Shown here piece after piece: positions 14,334 to 29,404 of a DNA stretch of 39,015 bases. Source of the stretch: Candidatus Peribacteria bacterium (GTDB lineage: Bacteria; Patescibacteriota; Gracilibacteria; UBA1369; LOWO2-01-FULL-3); NCBI GenBank assembly GCA_943358175.1, contig CALRGV010000009.1:1-39015 (forward strand), read 5' to 3'. Made by a program: the position numbers and the translations under genes. Position 1 is the stretch's first letter, and every line of letters starts with the position of its first letter. The notes beneath the pieces are model-generated. The model was not told the DNA's origin. It did not search any database and worked only from the letters and a program-made list of their open reading frames with translations.

Positions 14334-14774
14334 ATGAAAATCACCAGCCCCGCCTTTGAAAATAATGGGAATGTTCCCGCAAAATATACTTGTGATGGAG
14401 AAAACATAAATCCACCACTGGTTTTTAGTGAAATTCCTGCGGCAGCGCAGAGTCTCGTGCTAATTGTCGATGATCCTGACTCACCAAGCGGTACTTGGGT
14501 GCACTGGACAATCTGGAATATTGATCCAAAAGTTACCGGAATTGACGAAAATTCCATCCCTACCGGCACCACCCAGGGAACCACCAACTTCGGCAAAGAA
14601 GGCTACGGCGGCCCATGTCCCGCATCTGGCATTCACCACTACCATTTTAAATTGTATGCCCTGGATATCAAGCTTTATTTACCCGGCGTCAGAGCTGACA
14701 GTCTGGAAAAGGCAATGGTGGGACACAATTTGGATCAGGCTGAGTTGATTGGTTTATACACTAGGGAGAAATAA
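14334..14774 (+). CDS. YbhB/YbcL family Raf kinase inhibitor-like (PEBP) protein
   Basis: 146 residues, standard for bacterial phosphatidylethanolamine-binding-like proteins. The ligand-pocket signatures are VLIVDDPDSPSGTWVHW (residues 43-59), the GYGGPCPASGIHHYHF block near 87-102, and a C-terminal MVGHNLDQAELIGLY. No signal peptide is present, so it should be cytoplasmic. The physiological role of bacterial members is unclear. It is a single gene with its own -10 box, and mutM starts convergently 2 bp after its stop. Confidence 0.94.
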   Translation: MKITSPAFENNGNVPAKYTCDGENINPPLVFSEIPAAAQSLVLIVDDPDSPSGTWVHWTIWNIDPKVTGIDENSIPTGTTQGTTNFGKEGYGGPCPASGIHHYHFKLYALDIKLYLPGVRADSLEKAMVGHNLDQAELIGLYTREK

Positions 14775-27022: not shown

Positions 27023-27787
27023 ATGAAATTAATCTCCTGGAACATAAATGGTCTACGCGCGGTTGAGAAGAAAGGTTTCATTGCATGGCTACACAAAGAG
27101 AAACCGGATATTATCGGTCTGCAGGAAATAAAGGGTCAGGAGCATCAATTTAGTAAAGAATTATTGGCGCCGGATCATTATCATGCTTATTTTAATCCGG
27201 CGCAGAGGAAGGGATATTCCGGCACGGCTATTTACACGAAAGTTCAACCGCACGAAATTTTGAATGGCTTTGGGGTGGAGAAATTTGATTGTGAAGGGCG
27301 TACGCAAATTGTTGATTATGGTGATTTTGTTTTTTTTAATATTTATTTTCCGAATGGGCAAAGGGATCAAGAAAGATTGAATTATAAAATGGAATTTTAC
27401 GATGTTGCTCTGAAATATTTTGATAAATGTGTGCAGGAAGGTAAAAAACTTTTCATCACCGGCGATTACAATACCGCTCACAAAGAAATAGATCTCGCCC
27501 GTCCAAAGGAAAATGAAATGACTTCCGGATTTTTGCCAATAGAAAGAAGATGGCTCGATAAACTGGTCGCTCACGGCTTCATCGACTGCTTCCGCGAATT
27601 CAATCAGACTCCGGAATGTTATACTTGGTGGAGTATGAGAGGGGGTGCGAGATATAGAAATGTGGGATGGAGAATTGATTATTTTTTCTGCTCAAAAAAC
27701 GCTCGCAGCATGGTGAAAGATTGTTACCATATGCCAAACGTCATGGGTTCGGATCATTGCCCGGTGGTGCTTTATATAGCAAAGTGA
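27023..27787 (+). CDS. xth: exodeoxyribonuclease III (AP endonuclease)
   Basis: 254 residues of the ExoIII/APE1 family. It incises abasic sites and trims 3' blocks. Catalytic-site motifs are ISWNINGLRA (4-13), DIIGLQEIKG near 29-38 (metal-binding Glu), GYSGTAIYTK near 65-74, FITGDYNTAHKEIDLARP near 146-163, WWSMRGGARYRNVGWRIDYFF near 201-221, and GSDHCPVV near 244-251 (catalytic His). It complements mutM in base-excision repair. A long hairpin and a GC-rich island follow. Confidence 0.96.
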   Translation: MKLISWNINGLRAVEKKGFIAWLHKEKPDIIGLQEIKGQEHQFSKELLAPDHYHAYFNPAQRKGYSGTAIYTKVQPHEILNGFGVEKFDCEGRTQIVDYGDFVFFNIYFPNGQRDQERLNYKMEFYDVALKYFDKCVQEGKKLFITGDYNTAHKEIDLARPKENEMTSGFLPIERRWLDKLVAHGFIDCFREFNQTPECYTWWSMRGGARYRNVGWRIDYFFCSKNARSMVKDCYHMPNVMGSDHCPVVLYIAK

Positions 27788-27828
27788 AAATTCAAAACTT
27801 TGAGCGAAAATTCTGTAAAGAACTGGAA

Positions 27829-27932
27829 GGGTAGTAAGCTTATGAGGTTCGAGTTCGTCGGGATGCTTTGGCTGTGACTTTCGTCACGCCTCGGCAAATT
27901 CCCGCTCGAAAACTCTATTCACATTACTACCC
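27829..27932 (-). other. long imperfect hairpin at the edge of the GC-rich island
   Basis: GGGTAGTAA (27829-27837) pairs with TTACTACCC (27924-27932). Further in are GAG/CTC, TTCGAG/CTCGAA, CGGGA/TCCCG, TTTG/CAAA and GTGAC/GTCAC. On the minus strand the apical loop is GAAA, a stable GNRA tetraloop, so the folded RNA is more likely the minus-strand one, at the 3' side of the small Cys/His gene pair. It could equally serve both strands. Confidence 0.55.
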
Positions 27933-28017
27933 AACCAGTCATGGTCACCTGTCTCTCCGCGAGGCTCGCCCCATCAGGGGGTCATCGCCGTGCGGAATTT
28001 AAGTTTGTGCTGCCCAG

Positions 28018-28218
28018 CTAGACGTTGCGGTACGAACCGCTGTCGCGCTTGCTCATTGCCGCACGACCCGTGGACGGGGCGCGGTCATACTGGGAGTCCA
28101 ACTTCGCGTAGTGGTCCGCCAGGTCCTTCTTCTGGACCTGGTGACGCTTGCGACAGTTGTGATGGGTACAGGTGACCATCTGCAGGCCGAGGGCCTTCTG
28201 CTTAGCTGAAAGACTCAT
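28018..28218 (-). CDS. small Cys/His protein, putative zinc-binding (A)
   Basis: 66 residues, basic. It has CTHHNC at 17-22, then His26 and His36, a pattern that could hold one zinc ion (CX4C...H). The rest is Lys/Arg/Gln-rich and probably helical. A clear Shine-Dalgarno AGGAG stands nine bases before the ATG. The gene follows 54 bp after its apparent paralogue (28273-28569), with which it shares the CxxxC...LxxH layout. Family not recognised; a nucleic-acid-binding role is a guess from charge and size. GC-rich codon use sets it apart from the window. Confidence 0.55.
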   Translation of the reverse strand: MSLSAKQKALGLQMVTCTHHNCRKRHQVQKKDLADHYAKLDSQYDRAPSTGRAAMSKRDSGSYRNV

Positions 28219-28272
28219 TGGACACTTCTCCTGTCATAGGCGCTTGCGCCTGGGTTGTTGTGATGACCCCTC

Positions 28273-28569
28273 CTAGAAACGGAGGTTCTGGATCGCGACG
28301 CCGCGGCTGAGTTGGGCGACGACACGCTGACGCTGACAGCGGCTCTCGTGACTCTTGCCCTCGAAAGCAGTCTTGAGGCTCTTCATCATGCCGGGCGGCA
28401 GACCGTCCTTCTTGGCGATGAGGCGGAGCTTGTCGTTTTCCTTGTCGCGGCGATGCTTGTTGAGCTCACCGGGATGGAACTTGACGCCGCAGCACTCGCA
28501 CTTGATGAACCGATTCGCCTTGCGGAAACGATTCTCCTCGATGAAATAATTCTCGCCGGTATTGAACAT
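28273..28569 (-). CDS. small Cys/His protein, putative zinc-binding (B)
   Basis: 98 residues, strongly basic. The cluster KCECCGVKFHPGELNKHR near 23-40 has CX2C followed by His in a C2H2-like spacing, and a later His/Cys pair (KSHESRC) could complete a site. The middle (DGLPPGMMKSLKTAFEGK) is conserved-looking but unknown. AGGAG lies five bases before the ATG. It is the first gene of the two-gene minus-strand unit in the GC-rich island. It lacks recognisable homology by eye to named zinc-finger families. Confidence 0.55.
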   Translation of the reverse strand: MFNTGENYFIEENRFRKANRFIKCECCGVKFHPGELNKHRRDKENDKLRLIAKKDGLPPGMMKSLKTAFEGKSHESRCQRQRVVAQLSRGVAIQNLRF

Positions 28570-28729
28570 GGAAACTCCTGACAGGTGAATCCAAGCGACT
28601 TAACGCTCGGGGTTTGGTTGCTGAAATGTGAAAATCTGTTACTACCCTAGTTGTCAAATCATGAACGGCCGAACTTCGACCGCTCATAAATTACTTTAGA
28701 GGGGAGTTACTGACCTTCACGAACAGGTA

Positions 28730-28756
28730 GGGTACTAGAAAATAGAGAAATGTCAA
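28730..28756 (-). promoter_or_regulatory. candidate promoter of the Cys/His gene pair
   Basis: On the minus strand TTGACA (28756-28751), a spacer of about 16 bp, then TACCCT. The leader would be about 150 nt and include the hairpin at 28666-28688. A second TTGACA, just downstream of the hairpin and upstream of GGGTAGTAA, is an alternative. Confidence 0.35.
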
Positions 28757-28826
28757 GCTATAAGCCAAGATTTTAACGAATGTAATGAAATGCTCACTTA
28801 TTCGTATTCAAAAATAGACTATCCGC

Positions 28827-28855
28827 TAGACACTTAATTGATTAAAATCTAGTAT
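28827..28855 (+). promoter_or_regulatory. promoter of the secreted-protein gene
   Basis: TAGACA (28827-28832), 17-bp spacer, TAGTAT (28850-28855). The leader would be about 18 nt. Confidence 0.45.
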
Positions 28856-28879
28856 GAATACATCATTAACCAAAATTAT

Positions 28880-29404
28880 ATGAAATTCCAACGTCTCCTA
28901 AGCATCGTCACTATTGCCGCAATGACATTTTTAGTAAGCAGTACTAGCGTATTTGCCGAGGAGCAAGTACTAACTATCAGTTTTCAAGCAAACGTACTCA
29001 AAGACATGGATGACGATACTAGTGTTATCAAGAATAAATATGTGAATATGTACAAAGTTAAAGTGGTTGGTAATGACTACGTAGGTACGCGCGTTAAAAC
29101 CCTCAGTACAGGCAAAGATGGCTATCAGGCTGTTTTTACTATTAAACCTGGAGAGGCGGTGCATTTTATTGCCTTCAAAAACAAAGCAACCGCAAAAAAG
29201 GCTAAAAACAAAATCAAAATGACTGATGATTTCTATGGTGTACCACCAATGAAAAACTTTTCTGTAGCCGGCAAGCCAATGGAACTATGCACTACGGCCG
29301 GAGTTGATTTTGAAAACAAACTTACTGACTCTGCTACGGGAATCACCCTTTGCACCGAAGGCGAAAATGGCTATATCCAAGGAAATTTAGAGTTAACTAA
29401 ATAA
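28880..29404 (+). CDS. secreted hypothetical protein
   Basis: 174 residues. A signal peptide with basic start (MKFQR), hydrophobic core to about residue 24 and the cleavage-like site VFA-EE is clear. The mature part is mixed beta-strand, lysine-rich in the middle (NKATAKKAKNKIKM), with two cysteines (in MELCTTAG and ITLCTEGE) that could form a disulfide. No domain is recognised. It is monocistronic, between its own promoter and a strong terminator shared with the convergent aminopeptidase gene. Confidence 0.7.
   Translation: MKFQRLLSIVTIAAMTFLVSSTSVFAEEQVLTISFQANVLKDMDDDTSVIKNKYVNMYKVKVVGNDYVGTRVKTLSTGKDGYQAVFTIKPGEAVHFIAFKNKATAKKAKNKIKMTDDFYGVPPMKNFSVAGKPMELCTTAGVDFENKLTDSATGITLCTEGENGYIQGNLELTK

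Follow-up and report, generated by a model that had tools for sequence, protein, structure and literature searches.

The question raised by this locus is what kind of unit a short GC-rich island with two small minus-strand genes represents, and why it resides among genes of a different composition. The window, that is, the whole stretch of 39,015 nucleotides that was analysed, is contig 9 of a 1.38-Mb Candidatus Peribacteria genome (G000; 45 contigs, 99% complete). Its GC content is 0.602 at 28001-28500 versus 0.34-0.50 across all the remaining 500-base bins, and 0.579 for 28000-28600 versus 0.406 window-wide, which bears out the abrupt change of composition that the first-pass annotation had pointed out. 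The inverted copies that it had described as bracketing the block are exact, with AGGGTAGTAA at 27828-27837 and TTACTACCCT at 28639-28648, and an extra copy of this AGGGTAGTAA/TTACTACCCT repeat at 27924-27932 forms the 3' hairpin. The island is single-copy within its own genome. The leader pattern finds the element in two congeners, ZH-bin-154, a Candidatus Peribacteria MAG (CALRGJ010000006.1; G002), and LacPavin, a Candidatus Peregrinibacteria MAG (JAPLYN010000002.1; G003). It is confirmed that the GC-rich gene block is genuine, the recurrence of its hairpin ends and its ORF family at the same locus in the two congeners being beyond chance.

Along the minus strand, the unit begins with a 5' leader hairpin (28621..28726), which is a long imperfect stem with the apical GAGCGGTCGA-AGT-TCGGCCGTTC, includes AGGGTAGTAA and has a fold z of -5.2. 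Directly upstream of it, a TTGACA (28751..28756) is a weak candidate -35 box without a good -10, positioned as are promoter-like sites elsewhere in L052 (TTGACA-16-TAAAAT, 11/12) and L009 (TTGTCA-17-TAAACT, 9/12). In a promoter scan of 27700-28950 no minus-strand promoter was called, this TTGACA included, the -10 of the window being poor, and a second minus-strand TTGACA, at about 28652-28657, belongs to the stem of the leader hairpin. It is noted that, of the earlier claim that a TTGACA box and a wobble-rich hairpin precede the ORFs, the hairpin stands, and the box inside it is part of the stem in a region where the scan gives no promoter. The leader is followed by ORF 1 (28273..28569; P0002, 98 aa), by an inter-ORF hairpin AGGCGC-AA-GCGCCT (28238..28251), which G002 and G003 have with unchanged position and shape, and by ORF 2 (28018..28218; P0001, 66 aa), to which the congener ORFs P0003-P0006 are related. 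Both ORFs are preceded at the normal distance by the AGGAG Shine-Dalgarno (SD) sequence that had been noticed before, at 28575-28579 and 28228-28232, respectively. The trailer then consists of a stem (27957..27995) with a kink-turn-like core and a 3' hairpin of 118 nt (27822..27939; GGGTAGTAA...TTACTACCC), which ends within about 35 nt of the stop codon of the neighbouring xthA-like gene and has fold z values of -6.6 as RNA and -5.8/-6.9 as DNA. We take the stem to be kink-turn-like by the consensus of the Kt-7 type: it has GGC-GAU-GA-CCCC with GGG(G)-C-GA-GCY in G000, G002 and G003 (GGGG-C-GA-GCC in the window), being kept in all three congeners, while it differs from that type in having C.C at 3b.3n and is unrecognised in G015 and G001, two relatives that are described below. 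The ORF bodies have fold z values of only -2.4 to +0.8 versus -5.2 and -6.6 at the ends, and since the bodies are thus not markedly folded, the GC content of the ORFs is unexplained by RNA structure.

The xthA-like exonuclease gene and a 364-aa aminopeptidase-like gene (names presumed from sequence features) flank the island in the window, G002 and G003, and a further gene, which varies, lies on the aminopeptidase side in the congeners. The locus is therefore fixed in these three genomes, and the 3' hairpin is conserved, its pattern occurring in 3 of 195 genomes, all of one genus and G000 included. Orthologues of the aminopeptidase-like gene are found in 19 of 30 genomes of the family, and among the best 18 of these loci a GC-rich unit lies downstream in five (G000, G002, G003, G015 and G010), none in 12, and G001 is cut by its contig end, which stops 429 bases past the aminopeptidase-like gene. 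An island-less arrangement is seen in G011, of another genus in the same family, where the two flanking genes abut with 13 bases between their stop codons. In G015, of another genus, the aminopeptidase-like gene is followed by the leader and by a Cys/His ORF of 46 aa with an SD.

The first-pass annotation had further described two small basic proteins with related Cys/His layouts that could bind DNA or RNA, and both points hold, the second as a probability. As read off the sequence, the layouts are C24-x2-C27-x4-H32-x5-H38 in P0002 and C17-x4-C22-x3-H26-x9-H36 in P0001, and K+R exceeds D+E in both (22 versus 11 in P0002, 13 versus 5 in P0001); small, basic Cys/His proteins of this kind probably bind nucleic acid, and their Cys and His residues would bind zinc. 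The layout is common to the island ORFs, the Cys, Cys, His and His being invariant across five aligned ORFs (P0001, P0003/P0004 of G002 and P0005/P0006 of G003), and the matches to a profile of these five proteins are confined to G000, G002 and G003 among 288 genomes. For P0002 the congeners offer no clear homologue; it and the 46-aa ORF of G015 carry Cys/His layouts, with homology to the P0001 group undemonstrated. An AlphaFold2 (AF2) model of P0001 gives a beta-beta-alpha arrangement at residues 14-45, with block pLDDT values of 82-85 over residues 11-40, and the single-sequence model of P0002 is of low confidence (pLDDT 51). The known systems that come closest to the island are C2H2 zinc fingers with the beta-beta-alpha fold, including the bacterial Ros/MucR type, autoregulated operons such as those of ribosomal proteins, the Kt-7 kink-turn and integron attC cassettes. 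The island proteins are similar to C2H2 zinc fingers in having two Cys and two His at short spacing, a predicted beta-hairpin followed by a helix, and basic tails. They are different in their His spacing, in their tiny size, in their place in an operon with long hairpins, and in the lack of a significant family or fold match: against the zinc-finger family models P0002 scores 9.4 bits with PF13913 (cut-off 27), P0001 and P0003-P0006 have no Pfam zinc-finger match, the island proteins have no match in Pfam, NCBIfam or PHROGs that is significant or exceeds a curated cut-off, the best PDB profile match is the zinc finger of SAGA-associated factor 11 (E 0.054), and Foldseek with the P0001 model gives nothing below E 0.38.

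Based on these data, we propose to read the island as a mini-operon that resides at a fixed locus in a few Peribacteria genera, encodes small nucleic-acid-binding proteins, is probably regulated through its hairpins and follows an uncommon, GC-rich and SD-led style, a proposal to which we would give an even chance of being right. In the model, the long leader hairpin would open a single minus-strand transcript; one or two ORFs, each led by an SD and encoding a small, basic protein of C2H2-like zinc-finger type, would come next, and the kink-turn-like stem and the long hairpin would close it. The finger proteins would bind nucleic acid and the constant hairpins would serve regulation or stability, autoregulation being perhaps the simplest use of them; GGGTAGTA in the leader might have a choice between local pairing and pairing with TACTACCC in the trailer. 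It would be selection, rather than repeated import, that maintains the GC-rich SD-led style. Such a unit has in common with autoregulated operons of nucleic-acid-binding proteins, e.g., of ribosomal proteins, the structured leader, the small basic SD-led proteins and the structured end, and differs from them in that its proteins are non-ribosomal, fast-evolving and present in few genera only, and in that the regulation is here a prediction. Against the proposal stand the patchy occurrence, with 12 of the 18 aminopeptidase loci having no island, the poor -10 of the window, and the ORF-less G001 and the divergent ORF 2 that are described below. Among the open-licence PMC papers listed for Peribacteria/Peregrinibacteria and the Candidate Phyla Radiation, none has a title or beginning of an abstract that describes such a unit. 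The unit is also small and can be recognised by the covariance models of its ends, which makes it of use in a search for lineage-specific protein-RNA operons in Patescibacteria, a group with many unknown small genes.

The main rival, which we consider unlikely and yet a serious contender, is that the locus is a cassette site, where the hairpin ends persist and the cargo, GC-rich and SD-led, is repeatedly brought in from a phage, a plasmid or a neighbouring bacterium that is itself GC-rich and uses SDs, and is swapped between relatives. In favour of this are a GC3 and an SD use that are typical of another kind of genome, the few further GC-rich genes in G003 (4 of 646 with GC3 above 0.6), and ORF sets that differ between G000, G002/G003 and G015 and are missing in G001. 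It is also in line with the divergence between G002 and G003, where the interior has dS values of 1.0-3.2 versus 0.37-0.78 (with dN 0.008-0.057) in eight flanking genes, one further flanking gene pair having been excluded from the count because its coordinates were mismatched. The identity is 95.5% in the leader and 99.1% in the trailer hairpin, about 90% in the flanking DNA and far lower in the interior. By contrast, the comparable ORFs are homologous and under purifying selection: ORF 1 has a dN of 0.36 and a dS of 1.02 with an excess of changes at position 3, i.e., a dN/dS of about 0.36. Taken together, the conserved ends, the dN/dS and the high interior divergence imply that the ends are constrained, that the ORFs are coding and selected as proteins, and that the interior is fast-changing. 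ORF 2 is only 33% identical with dS saturated, which, together with P0002 having no clear homologue in the congeners, looks like replacement. Against the cassette site, neither a recombinase nor a target duplication is seen at the island, and the phage, plasmid and viral collections yield no source: the phages, plasmids, viral contigs and PHROGs searched have no significant match to the island proteins (best PHROGs E 0.062-0.13), tblastn of P0001, P0002 and P0005 against 50,697 phage records gives no match, and the same three proteins give nothing when viral contigs are scanned by peptide pattern. Seven viral stretches that matched the pattern had neither leader nor trailer in common with the island and were dropped. 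The suggestion that the block is perhaps derived from a phage or plasmid thus found no backing, while that of a foreign mini-element survives in part: the unit is distinct and its SD usage is foreign to its neighbours, but it is single-copy and occupies the same syntenic position in several species.

A bolder reading, which we regard as distinctly improbable, concerns translation: such genomes would have two expression styles, with nearly all genes AT-rich and lacking an SD and a handful of GC-rich genes made for SD-dependent translation, for which the CCTCC of the 16S rRNA would be kept. In its boldest form, the GC-rich genes would follow the translation dialect of a different organism, in which they would be meant, or would recently have been meant, to work, e.g., in the host cell of an epibiont. 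SD use in the island and the GC3 contrast with its surroundings are both plain, and they count for the proposed mini-operon. An SD match of at least 5 nt precedes one of the 36 other genes in the window, and 29 of the 36 have none of even 3 nt, in agreement with the earlier remark that the neighbours are SD-poor, while an SD of 4-6 nt precedes all eight island ORFs examined (seven of 46-98 aa and an 18-codon ORF of G010). GC3 is 0.80 in P0001 and 0.81 in P0002 versus 0.27-0.47 in the 36 other window genes, and 0.73-0.84 over the island ORFs across the relatives (0.80 in G015), so that the block is conserved in relatives without being composition-adapted, which is half of what the first-pass annotation had named as speaking against its view. 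In about 1.0 Mb of G003, the 646 ORFs that are 150 aa or longer have a mean GC3 of 0.31, and SD matches of at least 5 nt precede six of them, made up of two of the four with GC3 above 0.6 and four of the 642 others. One G003 contig with 118 ORFs that are 200 aa or longer shows no SD excess (5.1% versus 4.9% in shuffled upstream sequence, for at least 4 nt). The end of the G003 16S gene, GGATCACCTCCTTT, retains CCTCC (L128, minus strand, near 14708), from which it follows that SD-led translation is possible; a ribosome unable to read SDs was accordingly dropped as an idea for the genus. This CCTCC-bearing 16S gene differs from what has been published for Ca. Peribacter riflensis (PMC10783764).

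With two styles, the GC-rich class would consist of the zinc-finger unit and of three genes of G003, namely those for a repeat-rich lipoprotein, a small lipoprotein and an MFS transporter. The unit lends itself to testing why the 16S rRNA retains an anti-Shine-Dalgarno in a genome that makes no use of SDs, as the few genes led by an SD may form a functional class. The genes in question are a 744-aa lipoprotein-like gene with Dictyostelium-type repeats (L104 8102-10336; PF00526, E 6e-60; GC3 0.72; SD GAGGT), which has a long leader hairpin and a strong 3' hairpin; a small lipoprotein-like gene with a GGAGGT SD (L123 2336-2899; GC3 0.68); and an MFS transporter (L109 7255-8514; PF07690; GC3 0.73), which, as a third of the four with GC3 above 0.6, has AGGAGG before an internal ATG. 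A collagen-repeat protein (L115 17782-18534; PF01391) has a GC3 of 0.74. The leader of the L104 gene contains AGGGTAGTA, a 9-mer that occurs four times in the about 1.0 Mb of G003 and may be there by chance. Strong hairpins often occur before or after the GC3-rich G003 genes, and with another shuffling seed some control genes have them likewise, so that framing by hairpins is undemonstrated as a special feature of this class.

Another alternative, to which we give a slim chance, takes a gene for a structured non-coding RNA as the real unit and the ORFs as optional passengers. In its favour is the congener G001, where an ORF-less unit with both ends kept occupies L034 151-418: GTAGGGTAGTAAGCTTATGAG, a trailer end nearly as in the window, comes straight after the xthA-like gene, the leader hairpin lies 184-267 bases beyond, and no GC-rich ORF lies between the two, which implies that the ORFs are dispensable. 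A protein match in G001 (E 2e-4) has two internal stops, is antisense to a murC-like ORF and was dropped. G010, of a third genus, has at the same locus a 630-nt GC-rich unit (L037 1284-1914; fold z -7.6) whose sole ORF is SD-led and of 18 codons (MARKPKPSGLENCGCKKP), the order being a promoter-like TTGACA...TAAGAT (by eye), a hairpin, AAGGAG, the ORF, the structured GC-rich RNA and an end hairpin. Against 290 genomes this unit matches only itself and an unrelated stretch of 38 bases in G105, which lies within ordinary AT-rich sequence and was dropped; lacking significant DNA similarity to the other units, and hence demonstrable homology, G010 is counted as similar, not homologous. The leader, which is conserved in G000, G002 and G003 and also present in G015, covaries: over five genomes (these four and G001) 88.9% of the cells pair and both sides are changed in 5 of 21 pairs, a level that is reached by none of 500 shuffles and none of 6 slid versions, where the slid control leans in favour of the structure because the latter was partly derived from the same sequences. 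With covariance models of the leader (R1, 291 genomes) and the trailer (R2, 89 genomes) only G000, G002 and G003 were matched; a broader leader model seeded with the five genomes (R3, 386 genomes) matched its five seeds strongly, G015 included (E below 2e-10), and its eight weak matches in other genomes (E 0.02-0.96) were set aside as the number expected by chance. On the other side, the ORFs are protein-constrained and SD-bearing, and Rfam has no match up to E 5 in 27780-28800, and likewise in L037 1250-2000 of G010, on which ground a known RNA family was rejected.

It is very improbable that the unit is an integron cassette or is flanked by a pair of transposon ends, with the hairpins attC-like or terminal. 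The two long imperfect hairpins on either side of the small cargo would suit this, as would the ORFs, which point to the 3' hairpin, and attC cassettes likewise have a hairpin after the genes. But the island has no core boxes, array or linked integrase: GTTRRRY and RYYYAAC, the R' and R'' consensus, are absent at the attC positions on both strands by eye (27822-27939 and 28621-28726), so the integron gene cassette was rejected, and the lone PF00589 gene of the genome is on a different contig. A transposable element or MITE was rejected because the island is single-copy and at the same locus in the congeners, and no target duplication is recognised. Finally, an assembly chimera, which the abrupt composition change could suggest, is practically out of the question and misassembly was rejected, since three assemblies, two of them named MAGs from different projects and assembled separately, have identical junctions and place the island between the same genes in three species.

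Note also that beside the island, at 28880-29404 of the window, lies a gene for a 174-aa secreted-looking protein, and that coiled-coil-like ORFs occur at this place in G002 and G003.
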